From: Bacteroidales bacterium
GTDB lineage: Bacteria; Bacteroidota; Bacteroidia; Bacteroidales; F082
Direction of reading: 5' to 3'
DNA: 46,825 nt
NCBI GenBank assembly: GCA_017466405.1
Contig: JAFTUF010000024.1
Coordinates: forward strand, 1 to 46,825
A model generated the notes under the pieces. The model was not told where the DNA came from, ran no database searches, and saw only the letters and a program-made list of their open reading frames with translations. Position 1 is the stretch's first letter. Every line of letters starts with the position of its first letter. The position numbers and the translations under genes were made by a program. Positions 31,388 to 39,802 of this stretch are shown here, piece after piece.

Positions 31388-32149
31388 ATGAATTTATTAT
31401 TGATAAGTAATTCAACCAATTTTGGTGAGACTTATTTGGCTTGGGCAATGAGTCAACTTGAGTCATTTTGTGAGAAAAACAAACTTAATTCCGACAGTAG
31501 AATCGTTTTCGTTCCTTTTGCAGGTGTATTTATTAATGGTAATCCATATCCACAAAGTTACGACGCTTATACAGCAAGAGTGAAGAAAGTGTTTGAAGAG
31601 AAATTAGGACTTGGCAATTTTGTTTCCGTTCATGAAGTTGAAGATAAGATCAAACTTGTTGAAGAAGCAGCATGCGTCGTCGTCGGCGGTGGCAATACGT
31701 TCCATCTCGTCGCTGAACTTCATAAATATGGTCTGATGGACGCTATCTCAGCTGTAGCTAAAAAAGGCACACCTTATATTGGATGGAGCGCAGGCTCAAA
31801 CATCGCTTGTCCAACATTATGTACAACCAACGACATGCCTATCGTACAGCCAGCTTCTTTCAACACTTTGAATTTGGTTCCATTCCAAATCAATCCTCAC
31901 TACCTCGATCCACATCCAGAAATCGACAAGATGATAAAACACGGAGGTGAGACACGTCAGGATCGTATCAATGAATATCTTGCTGTAAATCAGAATATGA
32001 AAGTTGTCGGACTTCGTGAAGCATCAGCATTATGGGTGACAGGCGACAAGATTGCTTTGAAGGGCGGCAAGAAAATGATGGTCTTCAAATATGGAACAGA
32101 GCCTCTTGAATTAGAGCCAAATACAGATGTGACACAATATGTGATCTGA
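31388..32149 (+). CDS. pepE: Peptidase E (alpha-aspartyl dipeptidase), S51 family
   Basis: A 253-residue cytoplasmic serine peptidase that cleaves dipeptides with N-terminal Asp. The glutamine-amidotransferase-like fold is shown by VVVGGGNTFHLVAELHKYGL and the nucleophile elbow GWSAGSN with Ser near residue 134. NTLNLVPFQINPHYLD supplies the downstream conserved His. Slightly longer than the roughly 230-residue E. coli enzyme. It has its own Bacteroidota-type promoter and is divergent from the GH97 gene. Confidence 0.9.
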   Translation: MNLLLISNSTNFGETYLAWAMSQLESFCEKNKLNSDSRIVFVPFAGVFINGNPYPQSYDAYTARVKKVFEEKLGLGNFVSVHEVEDKIKLVEEAACVVVGGGNTFHLVAELHKYGLMDAISAVAKKGTPYIGWSAGSNIACPTLCTTNDMPIVQPASFNTLNLVPFQINPHYLDPHPEIDKMIKHGGETRQDRINEYLAVNQNMKVVGLREASALWVTGDKIALKGGKKMMVFKYGTEPLELEPNTDVTQYVI

Positions 32150-32213
32150 TAAATTTAAGTTTCATTGAAACAAAAGACGATGTTTGATGTTTAGTGGAAA
32201 AACATCAAATATT

Positions 32214-32864
32214 ATGAAACCTAAATTATTAACATTAACATTATTCTTGGTCTTGGGCGGCAGTCTCTTCGCACAGAGTGCCGCCAAGGCTGAAAGAATG
32301 CAGCGTCGTGAGGCACGCAAACAACGTCAGGCTTTAGAGTTGGCACAATCTAAAGCAGAGATGATTAAGTTGGTGAAAGACACCACTTTCGTTCTGGAAG
32401 CTAATACTTTCATCGGTCCGTTTGGACAAGAGTCTCCTGTTTCTTCATTTCAAAATTATTTTGCGATAATAGGTGATAAAGTCGCCATCAATATCGCTTT
32501 CGACAATCCTGTTTCAACTTCATCAGCAGCTCCTTTGGCATGGTATGGACCAGGAATACCAGGTGTGGGTCCAGGATATACGAGTCCTGGTTGGCCAGGC
32601 TGGAACTGGCAGTCATGGGACACACCTAACACTCCAGCCACGTTGACATCATACGACATTGACCTCTCTGACTCAGACGGTCCTTTCGTCATCACCGGCG
32701 CATTCAGAACATGGACAGGCGTGATACCAGTCAACTTTAAAGTGTATGTGCAAGCAAACGGAACGGGAAGAATCATCTTTTATTCCAACGACGGAGGTCA
32801 GGTGACATTCAGCGGCGATATTGTTTCGCCTGATAACGCATCAACCATTTATCCGTTACCGTAA
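32214..32864 (+). CDS. Exported DUF4251 family protein
   Basis: A 216-residue protein. The ATG at 32214 gives a good signal peptide (MKPKLLTLTLFLVLGGSLFAQ), so I reject an upstream frame-open start. After a basic, Ala/Gln-rich helix (AERMQRREARKQRQALELAQ) comes the DUF4251 domain: FVLEANTFIGPFG, NYFAIIGDKVAINIAF and FKVYVQANGTGRIIFYSNDG. An unusual Pro/Gly/Trp-rich loop (WYGPGIPGVGPGYTSPGWPG) interrupts the domain. The function of DUF4251 is unknown; it is restricted to Bacteroidota. A terminator hairpin follows. Confidence 0.82.
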   Translation: MKPKLLTLTLFLVLGGSLFAQSAAKAERMQRREARKQRQALELAQSKAEMIKLVKDTTFVLEANTFIGPFGQESPVSSFQNYFAIIGDKVAINIAFDNPVSTSSAAPLAWYGPGIPGVGPGYTSPGWPGWNWQSWDTPNTPATLTSYDIDLSDSDGPFVITGAFRTWTGVIPVNFKVYVQANGTGRIIFYSNDGGQVTFSGDIVSPDNASTIYPLP

Positions 32865-32896
32865 ACATTTAATTACAAACCATTTATCACTATTTA

Positions 32897-32926
32897 AAAG
32901 ATGTCTGTTATAGGCATCTTTTTTTT
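32897..32926 (+). terminator. Terminator after the DUF4251 gene
   Basis: An 8-base stem AAAAGATG/CATCTTTT (32897-32904 with 32915-32922) is followed by a T-run. Confidence 0.85.
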
Positions 32927-32946
32927 AATATTTTTTTTATAGATAA

Positions 32947-32977
32947 TTTGTTTTTTGTGGAAATAACTTTATATTTG
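32947..32977 (+). promoter_or_regulatory. Promoter of the five-gene envelope operon
   Basis: TTTG at 32947-32950 and TATATTTG (then C) at 32970-32977 are 19 bases apart, an excellent Bacteroidota -33/-7 pair. The leader to the first ATG is about 65 bases. Confidence 0.7.
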
Positions 32978-33049
32978 CAAATGAATTTAAATTAAGTTGT
33001 TAATGTAAATTCACGAGATAGATAGAATGTTAATTAAAAATAGTTTTCT

Positions 33050-34027
33050 ATGAAAAAGTATTTAATGCTGTGTTTGCTTGTCGTAATTTCCATTGTGTCA
33101 ATGGCGCAGGCAAAGAAACCTACAATCATGGTTGTACCAGCTGATGCATATTGCTCAAGAAATGGATATACTACGGAATGGGTAGATGAAAATGGTAACT
33201 CAAATGTTGTGTCAGATCTTTCAAATATTTTCAAACAAGACAACATTGAAGATCTGCGACTTGTCATTTCGGAATTGTCAAAGATTATGGCAGAAAGAGG
33301 ATTCCCGCTGAAAGACTTGGAGCAGACCTTAAAGTCGATACAACAAGAGAGTGTTGAAATGGGATTGTTATCAAGTTCATCTTCCGGTGCATATATTACA
33401 GAATCAATGCTTGATAAGGTTAAAAGAACAGCAAAAGCCGATATTATAATAGACCTCGACTACACACCTATGCAAAAAGGGCCTCAACGTTATATCTCAT
33501 ATAATATGAGAGCATTAGACGCATATACTAATAAGGTAGTAGCTGCTAGTTCAGGTGTCGGTTCTCCTTCTACCTCAGCGCCAATCAACTTGCTCCTAGA
33601 AGAAGCTGTGCTTAATCACATGGATTCTTTCTGCGCCCAGCTGATGTCGCATTTTGAAGATATGTCGCAAAACGGTCGTGAGATAGTGATGAAATTCAGA
33701 GTTTGGGATAATGCTGATGTCAACTTTGAATCGGAATTCGATTTTGAAGACGAATATCTGGAACTGACAGATATAATCTCTTATTGGATGGAAGACAATA
33801 CATTGAACCATGCTCCGACACGTACTAACGCTACTGAAAATTATATTGTCTTTGAACAGGTTAGAATACCTTTGTATAAAGAACGTAACGGCAGAATGTC
33901 GGCACTTGATGCTCGTGGTTTTGCCAATGGCATAAGAAGTTATCTTAAAAAAGAACCGTTCTTGATAGATAGTAAAATTTATGAACGCGGACTCGGTGAA
34001 GTCTGGATTATTATAGGAGAGAAGTGA
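33050..34027 (+). CDS. Exported protein, probable DUF6175 family
   Basis: A 325-residue protein with a signal peptide ending near 'SMAQA'. The mature start KKPTIMVVPADAYCSRNGY is the recognisable mark of a Bacteroidota family I believe is DUF6175. The middle (about 95-165) has ADIIIDLDYTPM and YNMRALDAYTNKVVAAS, like the nucleotide-free CsgG-type alpha/beta fold of envelope assembly proteins. The C-terminal half has an acidic stretch (NFESEFDFEDEYLELTD) and ends with GLGEVWIIIGEK. No lipobox is seen. First gene of five; the next starts 2 bases after its stop. Function not established. Confidence 0.72.
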   Translation: MKKYLMLCLLVVISIVSMAQAKKPTIMVVPADAYCSRNGYTTEWVDENGNSNVVSDLSNIFKQDNIEDLRLVISELSKIMAERGFPLKDLEQTLKSIQQESVEMGLLSSSSSGAYITESMLDKVKRTAKADIIIDLDYTPMQKGPQRYISYNMRALDAYTNKVVAASSGVGSPSTSAPINLLLEEAVLNHMDSFCAQLMSHFEDMSQNGREIVMKFRVWDNADVNFESEFDFEDEYLELTDIISYWMEDNTLNHAPTRTNATENYIVFEQVRIPLYKERNGRMSALDARGFANGIRSYLKKEPFLIDSKIYERGLGEVWIIIGEK

Positions 34028-34028
34028 T

Positions 34029-34709
34029 ATGAGAAGAATTAAGTCTATACTATTGATATTGTTTTTAGCTGTAGCTTCATTTTCGGCAGAGGCACAGAAT
34101 CTGAGAGTGTTAACGCCTTCAACATCAAATATTAGCAATGATGCAGCTTTGACATTATATAACAGATTGAATCAGGCAGTGACTCTTAACGGAATCGGCT
34201 CGACGGATAATTCAAACAAATTCTTGATGATACCTTCTGTGATTGTTACTTCCATAGAAGCAACGGCAACAGCTCCAATAAATTACGTGGCAGAGTTAGA
34301 AATAACTATTTATATAGTCGATAATAGTAGAAAACTGTTGTTTGCACAAGAGACTCTCGTTAAAAAAGGTGTGGGTGAAAATGAAACCAAGGCTGTCATG
34401 GAAGCGGTTAAATCTCTCAAAGCTCGTGACCCTAAACTTAAGAAAATAATTACAATAGCCAAAGATAAAATAGTTGAATATTACAACACTGAATGTGATA
34501 ATGTAATAAAAACCATCAATACATATATAGAAATGGGAATGTATGATGAAGCGCTTAGCGAATTAAACGCGATTCCTCAAATAGATGGATTAAATGGTTG
34601 TTATGATAATACATTGAATATCTTAATTAAAATATCTCAGGAACAACAGAGTTCTTCTCAGACAGCAATAAAGAATTCCGATCCTGATGTATCATGGATA
34701 AATAAATAA
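34029..34709 (+). CDS. Exported protein with CsgG/FlgO-like and short TPR-like parts
   Basis: A 226-residue protein with a signal peptide ending near 'AEAQ'. Residues about 24-120 hold an alternating alpha/beta region (NLRVLTPSTSNISNDAALTL, KFLMIPSVIVTSIE, AELEITIYIVDN) that recalls small CsgG/FlgO-like domains. Residues about 150-200 contain a TPR-like pair (NTYIEMGMYDEALSELNAIP). I do not recognise a named family. It is the second gene of the envelope operon, 2 bases after the first and 10 bases before the third, which implies production in fixed ratio with its neighbours. Confidence 0.65.
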   Translation: MRRIKSILLILFLAVASFSAEAQNLRVLTPSTSNISNDAALTLYNRLNQAVTLNGIGSTDNSNKFLMIPSVIVTSIEATATAPINYVAELEITIYIVDNSRKLLFAQETLVKKGVGENETKAVMEAVKSLKARDPKLKKIITIAKDKIVEYYNTECDNVIKTINTYIEMGMYDEALSELNAIPQIDGLNGCYDNTLNILIKISQEQQSSSQTAIKNSDPDVSWINK

Positions 34710-34718
34710 TAAAAAAAT

Positions 34719-35648
34719 ATGAAGAGATATATTATTATATTATTGTTGCTTGTAATTCCATTTGTTGGTTTCTCTCAAAAGGATTTTAAACTTGTAGAAC
34801 AAAGCAGCAAGAATAAACCAAACTGGATTTATGCAAATCAGATGGATACATATATGATTCAGGCAAATATGGCTGCAAGTATTGAAGAAGCACAGGATAT
34901 GGTTATGACATCTTTGTTAGATAGAATAGCTTCATCGGTGGCGGTGGTTGTCGCAAGTGAATCGACGAAAGAGACAGATTGGACTGTTGTCAATGATAAA
35001 GATTCGTATGTTGAGAATATAAAGGCAAGTACGACGCTCAAAGTAGCAAAGATGCCTGCTCTTCAAGGTATTAGCCTTTCAAAAGCTGAAGTATATTGGG
35101 AACGTTATATGAATAAGAAGACTAAGGAATCATACTACGACTATTATATACTTTATCCGTTTTCACAATTTGAATTGCAAGATCTAATCAATACTTATAA
35201 TGCGCAAGAGAAAGCATATAATGATAAGATAGAATCATATAAAAATTCCTTAGCAGAGAAGAATAGTGTTGATCAGATACTTACTGATATAAATGATATG
35301 AAAACCTTGATGAAGGAATTTGATGAAGCTGATTCTAAATATGGAAATATCAAGAATATCATATCACTTTATGAAAAGACAATATCAAATATTTATATTG
35401 ATGTATTGGAAAATGAAAATGGCAAACTTGTAATACAATTGAAATATGATGAGAAAGTAATGGAGACGAAATCATTGCCAAAGCTTAAGAGTGAATGTGC
35501 AAGAGATTTCTCTAAAAAACATAATGGTGATAAGATAGAATTGACGTTCAATACTTTCGATTGCTATGAACAAGATGATAATTATGTTGAAATACGTTTC
35601 GATTTTGGAAAGAAAAGAATAGTTGAGAAAGTTAACATTAAATTATAA
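34719..35648 (+). CDS. Exported LPP20-like protein
   Basis: A 309-residue protein with a signal peptide ending near 'GFSQ' and no lipobox. Residues about 25-110 have the LPP20 pattern: KPNWIYANQMDTYMIQANMA, then a helix EEAQDMVMTSLLDRIASSVAV followed by beta strands. The middle (about 145-225) is a long Lys/Glu/Asn-rich helical stretch likely to form a coiled coil. The C-terminal 80 residues are a beta-rich domain with one Cys pair (ECARDF, FDCYEQ). LPP20-type proteins include Vibrio FlgP, part of an outer-membrane flagellar ring, and Helicobacter surface lipoproteins. It is the third gene of the operon. Confidence 0.65.
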   Translation: MKRYIIILLLLVIPFVGFSQKDFKLVEQSSKNKPNWIYANQMDTYMIQANMAASIEEAQDMVMTSLLDRIASSVAVVVASESTKETDWTVVNDKDSYVENIKASTTLKVAKMPALQGISLSKAEVYWERYMNKKTKESYYDYYILYPFSQFELQDLINTYNAQEKAYNDKIESYKNSLAEKNSVDQILTDINDMKTLMKEFDEADSKYGNIKNIISLYEKTISNIYIDVLENENGKLVIQLKYDEKVMETKSLPKLKSECARDFSKKHNGDKIELTFNTFDCYEQDDNYVEIRFDFGKKRIVEKVNIKL

Positions 35649-35651
35649 TAT

Positions 35652-36209
35652 ATGAAAAAGTTTAGTTTGTTTATTATATCAGTTGTTATTGCAATAATAA
35701 GCGGTAATAATTGTTTTGCTCAGGTTGAAGATCCGTTGAATCAGCATAAGAAAGTTCATGGAGAATGGAGCAGTGAATCAGAAACAGTTATAAGCAAGAA
35801 GAAAAAGGACCAAAATAAAGAAGAGGATAAAACAAGTACTAACAATGTGCAATCGGCAACACAGTCGAAAGTCAAGATTAATAATTCATGTCCCGATGAT
35901 TTGACAGTGGAACTTATTTCATTGGTAGGCAATAAGTCATCACAAGAAGTTACGATTACAATTAGATTTACAAATCATAAAGTCAATGACTATTATTATA
36001 TTAGAAATTTCTTAGCATTCAATCAAGAAGGTGATGAGTTCTCGTCTTATACAATAGGAGGTTATAATACATTGACAGATGTCCCTCAAAAGACATCATG
36101 GAAAGTCGGACAGATGTTGCCTTCAAAGAATATGAAGTTAACGGCGCTTTCCTTTAACATAGGAGGATGCACTGTGGAAATGAGAAATATACCCATTGAT
36201 TGGAAATAA
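35652..36209 (+). CDS. Exported Lys-rich spacer plus Ig-like domain protein
   Basis: A 185-residue protein with a signal peptide ending near 'CFAQ'. Residues about 40-75 are a low-complexity Lys/Glu/Asn/Ser spacer (SKKKKDQNKEEDKTSTNN). The rest (about 80-185) is beta-rich with NNSCPDDLTVELISLVG, EVTITIRFTNHKVNDYYYI and SFNIGGCTVEMRNIPIDW, resembling a small Ig-like or telokin-like fold with one potential disulfide. I do not recognise a family. It is the fourth gene, 3 bases after the LPP20-like gene. Confidence 0.6.
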   Translation: MKKFSLFIISVVIAIISGNNCFAQVEDPLNQHKKVHGEWSSESETVISKKKKDQNKEEDKTSTNNVQSATQSKVKINNSCPDDLTVELISLVGNKSSQEVTITIRFTNHKVNDYYYIRNFLAFNQEGDEFSSYTIGGYNTLTDVPQKTSWKVGQMLPSKNMKLTALSFNIGGCTVEMRNIPIDWK

Positions 36210-36273
36210 TTAAGTTAAATAATAAGCGGAAGCCGAAAAGCAAAGAGTAGGCATAAACGAAAAAATTAAAAAA

Positions 36274-36822
36274 ATGAAAAAAGTTACTTTATTTTTAGGT
36301 GTAGCCTTGATGACTTTAATAATGGCATCATGTGGTTCAGAAAAACAAGTTGCATCAAACTTGCCATGCCCAGAATGTAGATCTACAACAGACGTGTTCA
36401 AATATTTAGGTCAACATATTGCAAGTAGTGATAGACAAATGCAACAAGCACGTTCTCAGGCTGCTAATGCAGCACGTTCCGAATTAGCAGCTCAAGTGAG
36501 TGCAACAATACAACGCGTTGTTGACAATTATACAAGCGAGTATGTTACAGGAGCTGAGAGTGATTTTAGACAACGTCTTCAAGACCTTTCTCGTACAGTT
36601 ATTAATCAATTATTGGTCGGTACTCCAATAACATGCGAAGGCACAATGCCAAGCACTTCAATCCAAGGTGCAACAATATGCTATGCATGCGTTGAACTCA
36701 CTGGCAAATCAGTGATGGATGAGATTGCAAAGAAAGTTTCAAACGATGAAAAACTCAGAACAGACTTTGAATACGAGAAATTCAAGAAAGTTCTTGAAGA
36801 AGAAATGGGTAAGTTACAATAA
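36274..36822 (+). CDS. LPP20-like lipoprotein
   Basis: A 182-residue lipoprotein with lipobox MASC (Cys near residue 20). A CPEC motif follows soon after (LPCPECRST). The body is the LPP20-type helix-strand unit: QQARSQAANAARSELAAQVS, a VVDNYTSEYVTGAES region and CYACVELTGKSVMDEIAKK. Six cysteines are present, four of them in CPEC and CYAC, so a disulfide or metal site is possible. It is the last gene of the operon (64 bases after the fourth) and the only clear lipoprotein, hence the likely outer-membrane anchor of the set. A strong terminator follows. Confidence 0.72.
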   Translation: MKKVTLFLGVALMTLIMASCGSEKQVASNLPCPECRSTTDVFKYLGQHIASSDRQMQQARSQAANAARSELAAQVSATIQRVVDNYTSEYVTGAESDFRQRLQDLSRTVINQLLVGTPITCEGTMPSTSIQGATICYACVELTGKSVMDEIAKKVSNDEKLRTDFEYEKFKKVLEEEMGKLQ

Positions 36823-36852
36823 GCTATTGTAAATTCAAATAATATGAACGAT

Positions 36853-36885
36853 ACGGAGGATTTTATTAGTCCTCCGTTTTTTTTG
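36853..36885 (+). terminator. Terminator of the five-gene envelope operon
   Basis: A perfect 8-base stem ACGGAGGA/TCCTCCGT (36853-36860 with 36870-36877) with a 9-base loop is followed by a run of T. Confidence 0.92.
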
Positions 36886-36983
36886 AGAAAAATATTTAGG
36901 TCTTACATATATATGAAATAAACATTTATTGAAAATAATTGTTTTATATGATGTCGAAGGTTATTAAAATGTGAAAAAAATTG

Positions 36984-36991
36984 TAAATTTG
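36984..36991 (+). promoter_or_regulatory. -7 box of the P-type ATPase gene
   Basis: TAAATTTG, then C, fits TAnnTTTG and lies 66 bases before the ATG at 37058. No clear -33 TTG is present at normal spacing. Confidence 0.4.
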
Positions 36992-37057
36992 CATTTCGTA
37001 TTTTTCCGATAACATAATGTAACAATTAGGAATTATTTTTTACATAACAAATTTTTT

Positions 37058-39802
37058 ATGATACATAAAGGTTTAACTAACGAACAGGTTGAAGAAAGCC
37101 GTAAGAAGTACGGCAGTAATGTTTTAACACCGCCAAAGAAAGAATCTCTATGGCATCAATTCTTCGAGAAACTGACAGATCCAATCATTAGAATATTGCT
37201 GATAGCATTGGCTTTGTCTGTTGGCGTTTCTCTTTATCAATATTTCACGACAGACGAAGGCTTCGCTGTCTTATTTGAACCTCTCGGAATCTTTGTAGCA
37301 ATTATGCTCGCTACTTGTATCGGTTTCGCTTTTGAGGTGAGTGCAAACAAAAAATTTGAAGTACTTAATAAAGTTAGCGACGACGAGGAAGTAAAGGTCG
37401 TTCGTAATGGCAATATTACAGTCATAGGTCGTAAGGAAATAGTAGTAGGAGACATCGTTATTATTGAAACCGGCGATGAAGTTCCTGCTGATGGAGAGCT
37501 TATTGATGCGTTCTCATTGCAAGTCAATGAGTCGGATCTTACAGGTGAGCCTATGGCAAATAAGACCATCGACCCTAAAGATTTCAATCCGGATGCTACA
37601 TATCCTTCAAACTGGGTCTTGCGAGGAAGTAAGATAATCGATGGTCACGGCGTGATGCGCGTTGAAAGAGTAGGCGATGCAACAGAATGGGGCAAAGTTT
37701 ATAAAGGCTCACAAATTGACAATAATATAAAAACGCCTCTCGATAACCAGTTGGATCGTCTTGGCAAGATAATTACAGTCGCAAGTTATTGTATAGCAGC
37801 TATAATATTAGTGATGCGTCTCGTGATGTTCTTCACAAGCAACGAACAATTTGAGTGGCTTGCTTTCGCTCAGTATCTCCTCAATACTCTTATGATGGCT
37901 GTGACAATTATTGTTGTTTCTGTTCCAGAAGGTCTTCCAATGAGTGTCACTCTCAGTTTGGCTCTCAGCATGAAACGTATGCTTACAGCAAACAACCTCG
38001 TGAGAAAAATGCATGCTTGCGAAACAATGGGTGCTGCTACTGTAATATGTACAGATAAAACAGGAACATTGACTCAAAATCAAATGAGTGTTAACGATTT
38101 GAGTTTCCCAGCTTTCCCTGAAAAACAACTCTCAGATAACGAAATAAGCAATCTTATAAAAGAAAGCTTAGCACTTAATACAACGGCATTCCTCGATTTC
38201 AGCGACGAAAAGAAAATCAAAGCTATCGGTAATCCTACAGAAGGTGCTCTCTTGTTATGGCTTAACAAACAAGGCGTTGATTACATGAAGATTAGAGAAG
38301 GTGTTAAGATGTATCAACAGGTTCCTTTCTCTACAAAATATAAGTTCATGGCATCTATCGTGGAGTCTCCTGCAATGGGAAAACCTATATTCTACGTGAA
38401 AGGAGCTCCTGAAATGATTCTAAAACATTGTAATAAGATAGCTACACAAGAAGGTAATGTTGATATTACACCTTACCGCTTAGATGTTGAAAAGCAGCTT
38501 CTTGAATATCAAGGTAAAGCTATGCGTACATTAGCGTTCGCTTATAAAATCGGTGACCCTAATGAACAATCCTTCGATCCAAAGACCGATGAACTTGTAG
38601 CAGAAAACTTTATATTATTAGGTATCGTTGCTATCGCTGACCCAATACGTCACGATGTCGCTGACGCTGTCAAGAATTGTATGTCAGCAGGTATAGATGT
38701 TAAGATTGTTACAGGCGACACTCCTGGTACAGCCATAGAAATCGGTCGTCAACTTGGATTGTGGCTCGGTACTGACTCTAAGGATGTTAACCATATCACT
38801 GGTAAAGATTGGGAAGCACTCTCAGACGAAGAAGCTCTTTCTGTCATTCATAACATTAAGATAATGTCGAGAGCACGTCCTATGGATAAAGAACGTCTTG
38901 TAAGATTGTTGCAATCTGAAGGTGAAGTCGTAGCAGTTACAGGCGATGGCACCAACGACGCTCCTGCTCTTAAAGCTGCACAAGTAGGTCTCTCAATGGG
39001 TGATGGAACAACTGTAGCAAAAGAAGCATCCGACATTACAATCTTGGATAACTCCTTCAACAGTATCGCTCGTGCTGTGATGTGGGGAAGATCATTGTAT
39101 ATTAACATCCAACGTTTCATCGTATTCCAAATGACAATCAATGTGGCAGCATGTCTTATCGTTATGCTCGGTGCATTACTCGGATCAGAAATGGTTCTTA
39201 CTGTTACACAGATGCTTTGGGTTAACTTAATCATGGATACATTCGCAGCTATGGCTCTCGCTTCATTGCCACCTTCACCATTGGTAATGAAAGAGAAACC
39301 TCGTAGCAGAGAAGCTAATATCATAACAAAGCCAATGGCATATTTCATCTTTGGCGTCGGTATATTCTTTGTTCTCCTTATGTTCGGTCTCGTCCAATAT
39401 TTCAAACATGTCGATGTGACTTCAATGTCAGATTTCTCATTCGCAGAATATCTCAGGAATTATTTCAATTTCAATATGGTTCATGAAGGAATCTCTGCAA
39501 TAGAGCAGACATTCATCTTCACAATATTCGTGTTCTTGCAGTTCTGGAACTTATTCAACGCTAAGGCATTCCATAGCGAGAGTTCAGCCTTGAAAGGATT
39601 GTTCTCCAAAGATGTCATCGCTGGATTCGGATTAGCATTGCTCGTAATATTAGGCGGTCAATATCTTATCGTTACATTCGGCGGCGAGATGTTCAACGTC
39701 ACAGCTATGACAATGAAAGACTGGCTGTATATCTTACTCGGAACATTCCCAGTCTTGTTTGTTGGTGAGGCTGTTAGAGCAATCAGGAAATTGATAAAAT
39801 AA
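37058..39802 (+). CDS. Calcium-translocating P-type ATPase (PMCA-like)
   Basis: A 914-residue P2-type ATPase that pumps cations, most likely Ca2+, out of the cell. The N-terminal actuator region has IIETGDEVPADGEL and the conserved ESDLTGE turn. The transmembrane ion site is VPEGLPMSVTLSLALSM (M4). The phosphorylated Asp is residue 333 in CTDKTGTLTQN. The nucleotide domain has KGAPEMIL, and the hinge is VTGDGTNDAPALK. M6 contains NLIMDTFAAMALAS, typical of plasma-membrane-type calcium pumps. Ten membrane segments are expected. No C-terminal autoinhibitory domain is visible. The family call is firm, the ion is an inference. A palindromic terminator follows. Confidence 0.92.
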   Translation: MIHKGLTNEQVEESRKKYGSNVLTPPKKESLWHQFFEKLTDPIIRILLIALALSVGVSLYQYFTTDEGFAVLFEPLGIFVAIMLATCIGFAFEVSANKKFEVLNKVSDDEEVKVVRNGNITVIGRKEIVVGDIVIIETGDEVPADGELIDAFSLQVNESDLTGEPMANKTIDPKDFNPDATYPSNWVLRGSKIIDGHGVMRVERVGDATEWGKVYKGSQIDNNIKTPLDNQLDRLGKIITVASYCIAAIILVMRLVMFFTSNEQFEWLAFAQYLLNTLMMAVTIIVVSVPEGLPMSVTLSLALSMKRMLTANNLVRKMHACETMGAATVICTDKTGTLTQNQMSVNDLSFPAFPEKQLSDNEISNLIKESLALNTTAFLDFSDEKKIKAIGNPTEGALLLWLNKQGVDYMKIREGVKMYQQVPFSTKYKFMASIVESPAMGKPIFYVKGAPEMILKHCNKIATQEGNVDITPYRLDVEKQLLEYQGKAMRTLAFAYKIGDPNEQSFDPKTDELVAENFILLGIVAIADPIRHDVADAVKNCMSAGIDVKIVTGDTPGTAIEIGRQLGLWLGTDSKDVNHITGKDWEALSDEEALSVIHNIKIMSRARPMDKERLVRLLQSEGEVVAVTGDGTNDAPALKAAQVGLSMGDGTTVAKEASDITILDNSFNSIARAVMWGRSLYINIQRFIVFQMTINVAACLIVMLGALLGSEMVLTVTQMLWVNLIMDTFAAMALASLPPSPLVMKEKPRSREANIITKPMAYFIFGVGIFFVLLMFGLVQYFKHVDVTSMSDFSFAEYLRNYFNFNMVHEGISAIEQTFIFTIFVFLQFWNLFNAKAFHSESSALKGLFSKDVIAGFGLALLVILGGQYLIVTFGGEMFNVTAMTMKDWLYILLGTFPVLFVGEAVRAIRKLIK

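Follow-up and report, generated by a model that had tools for sequence, protein, structure and literature searches.

The five-gene operon

The DNA considered here is a window of 46,825 nucleotides on contig JAFTUF010000024.1 (assembly GCA_017466405.1) of a Bacteroidales bacterium of the F082 lineage, and our subject is a run of five genes within it, A to E, that belong to a larger gene module found across the order Bacteroidales. The five open reading frames lie head to tail on the plus strand from 33050 to 36822, separated by 1, 9, 3 and 64 bases; a first-pass annotation, made from the letters of the DNA, had described the same five-gene layout with gaps of 2, 10, 3 and 64 bases, of which the first two are corrected here. 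Gene A (33050-34027, 325 residues) is a DUF6175 (PF19672) member by Pfam match with a signal-peptide-like start, and gene B (34029-34709, 226 residues) encodes an exported protein that the gene order of relatives marks as a near-invariant partner of A. Gene C (34719-35648, 309 residues) encodes an exported protein with an LPP20-like domain, recognised by profile-profile comparison with hhalign, ahead of a charged region that looks helical and a C-terminal part. Gene D (35652-36209, 185 residues) encodes an exported protein with a lysine-rich linker, seen in a 13-row alignment (A8), and a C-terminal domain that looks immunoglobulin-like as a pattern reading. Gene E (36274-36822, 182 residues) encodes a predicted lipoprotein that is LPP20-like by hhalign. 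A signal-peptide-like N-terminal stretch can be read in 5 of 5 proteins, in agreement with the earlier description of an exported, envelope-directed operon.

The five open reading frames are real coding genes under purifying selection. The ratio of nonsynonymous to synonymous substitution rates (dN/dS) is 0.04-0.14 for all five against the related locus L114, with 0.046 for gene A, and 0.29 for gene C against L115; dS values above 1 in these comparisons are near saturation, and for gene D against L115 no usable value was obtained. The five genes most likely form one transcription unit. The Bacteroidetes promoter consensus is TTTG-N18-21-TANNTTTG, and a match to it, TTTG-N19-TATATTTG, lies at 32947-32977 on the plus strand; downstream, a hairpin scan places an intrinsic terminator at 36853-36877 on the same strand, with a 10-pair stem (five G-C pairs) followed by TTTTTTT, in a region (31500-38500) that holds 8 terminator-like sites against 3.4 expected. 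The claim that one clear promoter and one clear terminator enclose the genes stands for the terminator and is weakened for the promoter, which is the sole full consensus match on either strand of the window but for which 1.28 matches are expected by chance. Among seven near relatives, a full match within 1200 bases 5' of A precedes the first gene of the unit in four, this first gene being A in L114 and L115 and a further gene, S, in L116 and L117; none was found within that distance in L118, L119 and L120.

A larger module across Bacteroidales

Gene neighbourhoods were compared in two sets of loci. Set 1 holds 60 chosen Bacteroidales stretches out of the places listed, one of which (L063) is without A, and set 2 holds the best 80 of 534 relatives at named loci, a selection biased towards close and long matches. 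Because the two sets share loci (L054 and L116 are one contig), their counts are not summed; loci near contig ends are excluded, and genes of the relatives were called by a simple longest-open-reading-frame script that gets some starts and small genes wrong.

The gene order that the first-pass annotation had singled out for comparison is conserved in Bacteroidales, above all between A and B: where there is room downstream, B is the very next gene after A in 52 of 58 loci of set 1 and 72 of 74 of set 2. A gene for a protein of about 165 residues, S, lies just upstream of A or is fused to it in 51/59 and 67/76 loci, the fusion accounting for 13 loci of set 1 and 3 of set 2, and a gene for a protein of about 400-630 residues, O, lies no more than six genes from A on the same strand in 33/51 and 41/58. 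A and B, almost always paired, sit inside a larger module made up of O, S, A and B with optional C, D and E; the neighbour frequencies, including those of C, D and E given below, define the first four as the core and the last three as additions in part of the order.

The module is divided in more than one way. The unit in the window had been called self-contained, a description that does not hold, since its S and O partners lie together on another contig of the same genome (C49), 15 bases apart by profile matches and 12 by open reading frames. Genome G005 is split differently, with O and an S-A fusion in L062 and D-B-C-E in L063, on separate contigs, and all seven parts are kept in both genomes. 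In a sister species (G009, L054), where the search covered the locus only, the operon keeps S and is without D and E at that place. Other arrangements include S doubled with O downstream, and C and E outside the stretch, in L180 (Tannerella), L186 (Prevotella) and L191 (Dysgonomonas macrotermitis DSM 27370, with S, S, A, B and O), and O upstream in L177 (Prevotella) and L181; the Prevotellaceae-labelled L135 and L161 carry C and E.

The S protein of the window species is a predicted lipoprotein. We considered S as a further LPP20-like protein and set this aside: 15 S proteins cross-match the E profile, but neither hhalign nor hmmsearch against LPP20 references gave anything, and the cross-matches may come from signal or lipobox stretches.

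Several variants of the arrangement were also seen. At four loci (L056, L057, L066 and L067, from G011, G017, G124 and G309) the S-A fusion and D are both doubled, in the order A-D-D-A-B-C-E, and the two S-A fusion copies of G011 are 47% and 40% identical to A. At L074, L076, L086, L089, L092 and L097 the module follows a conserved gene cluster, whose members at L086 resemble, by their sequences, ExbB/TolQ, two ExbD and an alkaline phosphatase. A WG-repeat protein (PF14903, E-value 4e-64) lies between B and O at L083:5216-6886, with cluster-mates in the same place in L079, L084 and L103.

Co-inheritance of the parts

Among 40 genomes, the window's own included, A and B share one set of 11, and C, O and S share one set of 9 that lies wholly inside it; in six of the nine O-positive genomes, no copy of O lies on a contig with A. 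The probability that the O set would fall inside the A set by chance is 2e-7 if genomes are treated as independent and 1.2e-5 within the dominant genus, of which gene A is present in 9 of 24 genomes. This patchy presence within one genus, together with the repeated splitting of the module, argues that the unit is kept or lost together. DUF6175 is found in 67 of 295 Bacteroidales genomes (66 over cut-off), and record titles place the module in both gut and environmental Bacteroidales.

LPP20-type domains in C and E

The profiles of C and E were compared by hhalign with 30 PF02169 reference domains from other Bacteroidota, alongside 33 decoy families. E matched the LPP20 references at 99.2% probability (best decoy 0.6%) and C at 97.1% (best decoy 1.2%), so that none of the 33 decoys came as high; the two profiles match each other at 82.7% and 89.9%, and at E-values below 1e-3 the E profile matched 20 of the 30 reference domains and the C profile 10. 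Both proteins lie below the Pfam cut-off, with no PF02169 match even at E-values up to 1 in the Pfam scan, while relatives of E reach PF02169 at E-values of 0.057 and 0.04 and, in a locus from another order (L261), at 24.1 bits against a cut-off of 25.9. The profile-profile scores far above the decoys and the sub-threshold L261 homologue identify C and E as remote LPP20-type proteins with predicted SHS2-type domains, and the earlier reading of two LPP20-like proteins is upheld to that extent. In searches of PDB, the E profile with its signal peptide included matched Lpp20 of Helicobacter pylori (5ok8) at an E-value of 1.3e-5, followed by 9hmf ('Lipoprotein, putative') at 0.0055; for A, B, C, S and O the profile searches turned up nothing in PDB that we judged meaningful.

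Protein E differs from C in its anchoring signal, for the lipobox-like motif LIMASC ends the signal stretch of E and C has no lipobox. In Bacteroidetes a run of acidic residues after the lipobox serves as a signal for export to the surface; the lipobox of E is followed by GSEKQ with no obvious acidic run, on which basis E would probably face the periplasm from the outer membrane. The CPEC and CYAC motifs that had been remarked on in E are present here but are a local feature, both cysteines of each being kept in only 4 of 19 rows of alignment A5, and the broadly kept cysteines are those of 'PC' and 'ITCEG', invariant in 13 of 13 rows of A9.

In some species C or B carries additional domains. 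Five C proteins are 637-640 residues long (L129, L130, L123, L125 and L141), and the two of them that were scanned (L129:10704-12617 and L130:10713-12629) carry fused CarboxypepD_reg and Laminin_G_3 domains at the C-terminal end; in the B protein of L160 (over cut-off) and of L085 (below cut-off) the last domain is of the F5/8 type C kind. Domains of the Laminin_G_3 and F5/8 type C kind often bind glycans.

Genes A and B

Gene A matches PF19672 over its full length (model positions 1-293 of 293; E-value 1.4e-100; 336.6 bits against a cut-off of 23), which bears out its assignment to DUF6175, and no Pfam or NCBIfam family came over cut-off for B, C, D or E. The TPR-like helices of B are a sequence reading, TPR_19 being matched only below cut-off (E-value 0.071). 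The CsgG-like features reported for A and the CsgG likeness reported for B were compared by hhalign with 18 canonical CsgG domains, 41 broad members (PF03783) and 33 decoy profiles, and they found no support: the probabilities were at most 1.5%, there was no Pfam CsgG match, and for A two of the 33 decoys scored as high as or higher than the canonical CsgG profile. A forced alignment does put the motifs of A in CsgG order, which we treat as a lead only. Neither FlgO nor FlgT was named by the Pfam scan of the window proteins, in which no dedicated FlgO or FlgT profile was run.

Neighbouring genes

Upstream of the operon, at 32184-32864, lies a gene for an exported DUF4251 protein (PF14059, E-value 2.2e-8), closed by its own hairpin at 32896-32922; among the 60 stretches only L054 matched it, and open reading frames of similar length stand at the same place in L114-L120. 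In the window and in nine loci of its genus, the module or its B-C-E part is flanked by genes of clusters c6 and c7 (in the window at 31388-32149 and 37058-39802), which we take, from their sequences, to be a peptidase E-like gene and a P-type ATPase gene. Because the same two flanking genes enclose either the module or its B-C-E part, parts appear to have been gained and lost at one site.

A proposed outer-membrane assembly

On present sequence evidence we put at about even the case that A-E form the portion found here of a Bacteroidales envelope module whose genes are inherited together, likely one that scaffolds or stabilises the outer membrane. Its lipid would hold E in the outer membrane, facing the periplasm, and C and E would supply LPP20/SHS2 domains that pair or stack in an assembly of many subunits, with A and B as soluble periplasmic partners of each other. 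S, as a predicted lipoprotein, and O, through a putative barrel where one is present, would tie this assembly to the outer membrane, while D and the lectin-like domains fused to C or B in some species may contact glycan. The whole would act as a scaffold or stabiliser of the outer membrane and be neither a flagellar part nor a subunit of the type IX secretion system. The most extended form of this proposal, in which O-S-A-B-C-D-E is an undescribed, Bacteroidales-wide outer-membrane assembly whose LPP20/SHS2 subunits build a flagellum-independent, glycan-contacting scaffold, we hold to be doubtful.

Several results weigh against this proposal. Within six genes of A on the same strand, C is found in only 20 of 51 loci of set 1 and 35 of 58 of set 2, E in 16/51 and 19/58, and D in 6/51 and 5/58, and the absence of C, D and E from many A-B loci implies that the LPP20 parts are not essential to whatever A and B do. 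Two genomes, G012 (80% complete) and G026 (98%), carry A-B with C, O and S not found by profile searches. The co-occurrence figures overstate independence, because 24 of the 40 genomes are of one genus. The barrel of O goes back to a sub-threshold OMP_b-brl match (E-value 0.27) in one relative, and the O of the window species aligns with no more than positions 1-408 of a profile of 574. With mature E alone, 5ok8 remains the top PDB match but is weak (E-value 0.041, the next hits at 0.19), and a crude lipobox pattern is matched by no more than 29 of the 54 proteins labelled E and 20 of the 128 labelled S. In the literature searched, no experiment on any member of the module was found.

The module is of interest for several reasons. 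A functionless Pfam family and several unannotated proteins become a single module, with at most seven genes, that can be put to the test; proteins of the LPP20 type, familiar elsewhere from flagellar disks and as Helicobacter lipoproteins, occur in bacteria without detectable flagella; and a module that did build an outer-membrane structure would bear on the origin of FlgP-type disks.

Alternative explanations

The LPP20 domains of C and E invite comparison with the flagellar H-ring, and the first-pass annotation had suggested an analogous ring for another machine, such as secretion or surface assembly. We consider it rather unlikely that the module is a non-flagellar counterpart of this kind, with proteins of the LPP20 type closing into a ring or disk that surrounds another machine beneath the outer membrane. 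In the portion of a study of the Campylobacter motor that we consulted (PMC12222027), FlgP, Lpp20 and FlgT share an SHS2-like fold, which favours such a counterpart, and ring formation in the family is linked to an insertion that separates the helix from the second strand, the ring-forming hairpin being called unique to FlgP among the folds compared. In sequence alignment E follows Lpp20 with short gaps only and without a large insert, which would tend to argue against a FlgP-like ring. Profile comparison of A and B yields no CsgG-type partner, and neither flagella nor the type IX secretion system accompanies the module. None of 295 Bacteroidales genomes has FlhA (PF00771) over cut-off, two weak matches falling below it, and the window's own genome has none, in a search that was positive in 4 of 14 control genomes; this accords with the earlier remark that no flagellar genes are seen. 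Of that suggestion the two LPP20-domain proteins survive, the CsgG-type A and B and a link to type IX secretion find no support, and the ring itself is a guess. An accessory role in the type IX secretion system or in the assembly of its cargo is very improbable. Both are envelope systems of the same order, and SprA is present in the host genome as in 278 of the 295 Bacteroidales genomes (277 over cut-off), but DUF6175 is independent of SprA, the one gene of the system used, occurring in 64 of 278 SprA-positive and 3 of 17 SprA-negative genomes (Fisher p 0.77); the three SprA-negative carriers are G149, G249 and G281, of which G249 is 82% complete and the other two 99%. A link to this system was rejected on the lack of co-occurrence with that one gene.

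A system for curli-like export or surface fibres, in which A or B would be the CsgG-type protein, also has points in its favour: the order of motifs in the forced alignment of A, the broad CsgG profile as the best non-family match of B, which no decoy equals, and a CsgG protein that adjoins an E homologue in L255. The match of B nevertheless has a probability of 1.5%, and with A and B below significance and two decoys level with or above canonical CsgG for A, we regard this reading as quite unlikely. A complex that contacts peptidoglycan or surface glycans and tunes the synthesis or stability of the envelope, with the lectin-like parts as its contacts, is unlikely as well. The Laminin_G_3 and F5/8 type C fusions speak for it, as does the precedent of LpoB-type proteins, which act on peptidoglycan synthesis from the outer membrane; against it, the fusions occur in few loci (five long C proteins, two of them scanned, and one B protein over cut-off), and Pfam finds no glycan enzyme among A-E. 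An anti-phage defence system was considered and dropped, since a PADLOC scan of the seven proteins at E-values up to 0.01 gave no convincing model match, only one weak and partial match of E to LeoBC (0.0011, 16.2 bits).

Comparison with known systems

In the literature searched, which leaves most subscription journals outside it, no paper on DUF6175 (PF19672) was found, and none of the listings on LPP20, CsgG and FlgP in Bacteroidetes describes the module. The module is apparently undescribed and yet widespread in Bacteroidales, in keeping with the earlier view of this operon as a candidate for a new system. Its closest named family is PF19672 itself, of which gene A is a full-length member and whose entry is a name without a function.

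The LPP20-type domain relates C and E to Lpp20 of H. pylori (HP1456, PDB 5ok8; PF02169), and E is a predicted lipoprotein of similar length; in contrast to that family, C and E do not reach the Pfam cut-off and are joined to A, B, S and O. As far as the consulted part of one report extends (PMC11756786), deletion of hp1456 altered neither motility nor the structure of the motor, even though its product HP1456 interacts with FlgP and FapH; LPP20 proteins are thus not always ring builders. The FlgO-FlgP-FlgT system of Vibrio and Campylobacter (H-ring, basal disk) likewise combines outer-membrane lipoproteins with periplasmic subunits of the same small-domain kind, FlgO and FlgP being outer-membrane lipoproteins and FlgT periplasmic in the section consulted of a further source (PMC7990780). 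The module differs from it in that its bacteria are without FlhA over cut-off, no CsgG-type partner emerges, and the alignment of E with Lpp20 has no FlgP-like insert.

A related arrangement is seen in CsgG/TPR-LPP20-LPP20 clusters of other Bacteroidota (L255, L260 and L261), which have adjacent LPP20 proteins. In L255 and L261, from Bacteroidia of other orders, a close homologue of E adjoins a PF02169 protein, and L255 also has a recognisable CsgG protein with a sub-threshold TPR, whereas A, B, S and O were not found by profiles in the L255, L260 and L261 stretches. Because E homologues of other orders adjoin PF02169 proteins and, in L255, a CsgG protein, Bacteroidales may have elaborated the module from a CsgG/LPP20 envelope theme of wider distribution, with A and B standing where CsgG stands elsewhere; we take this as a lead only.

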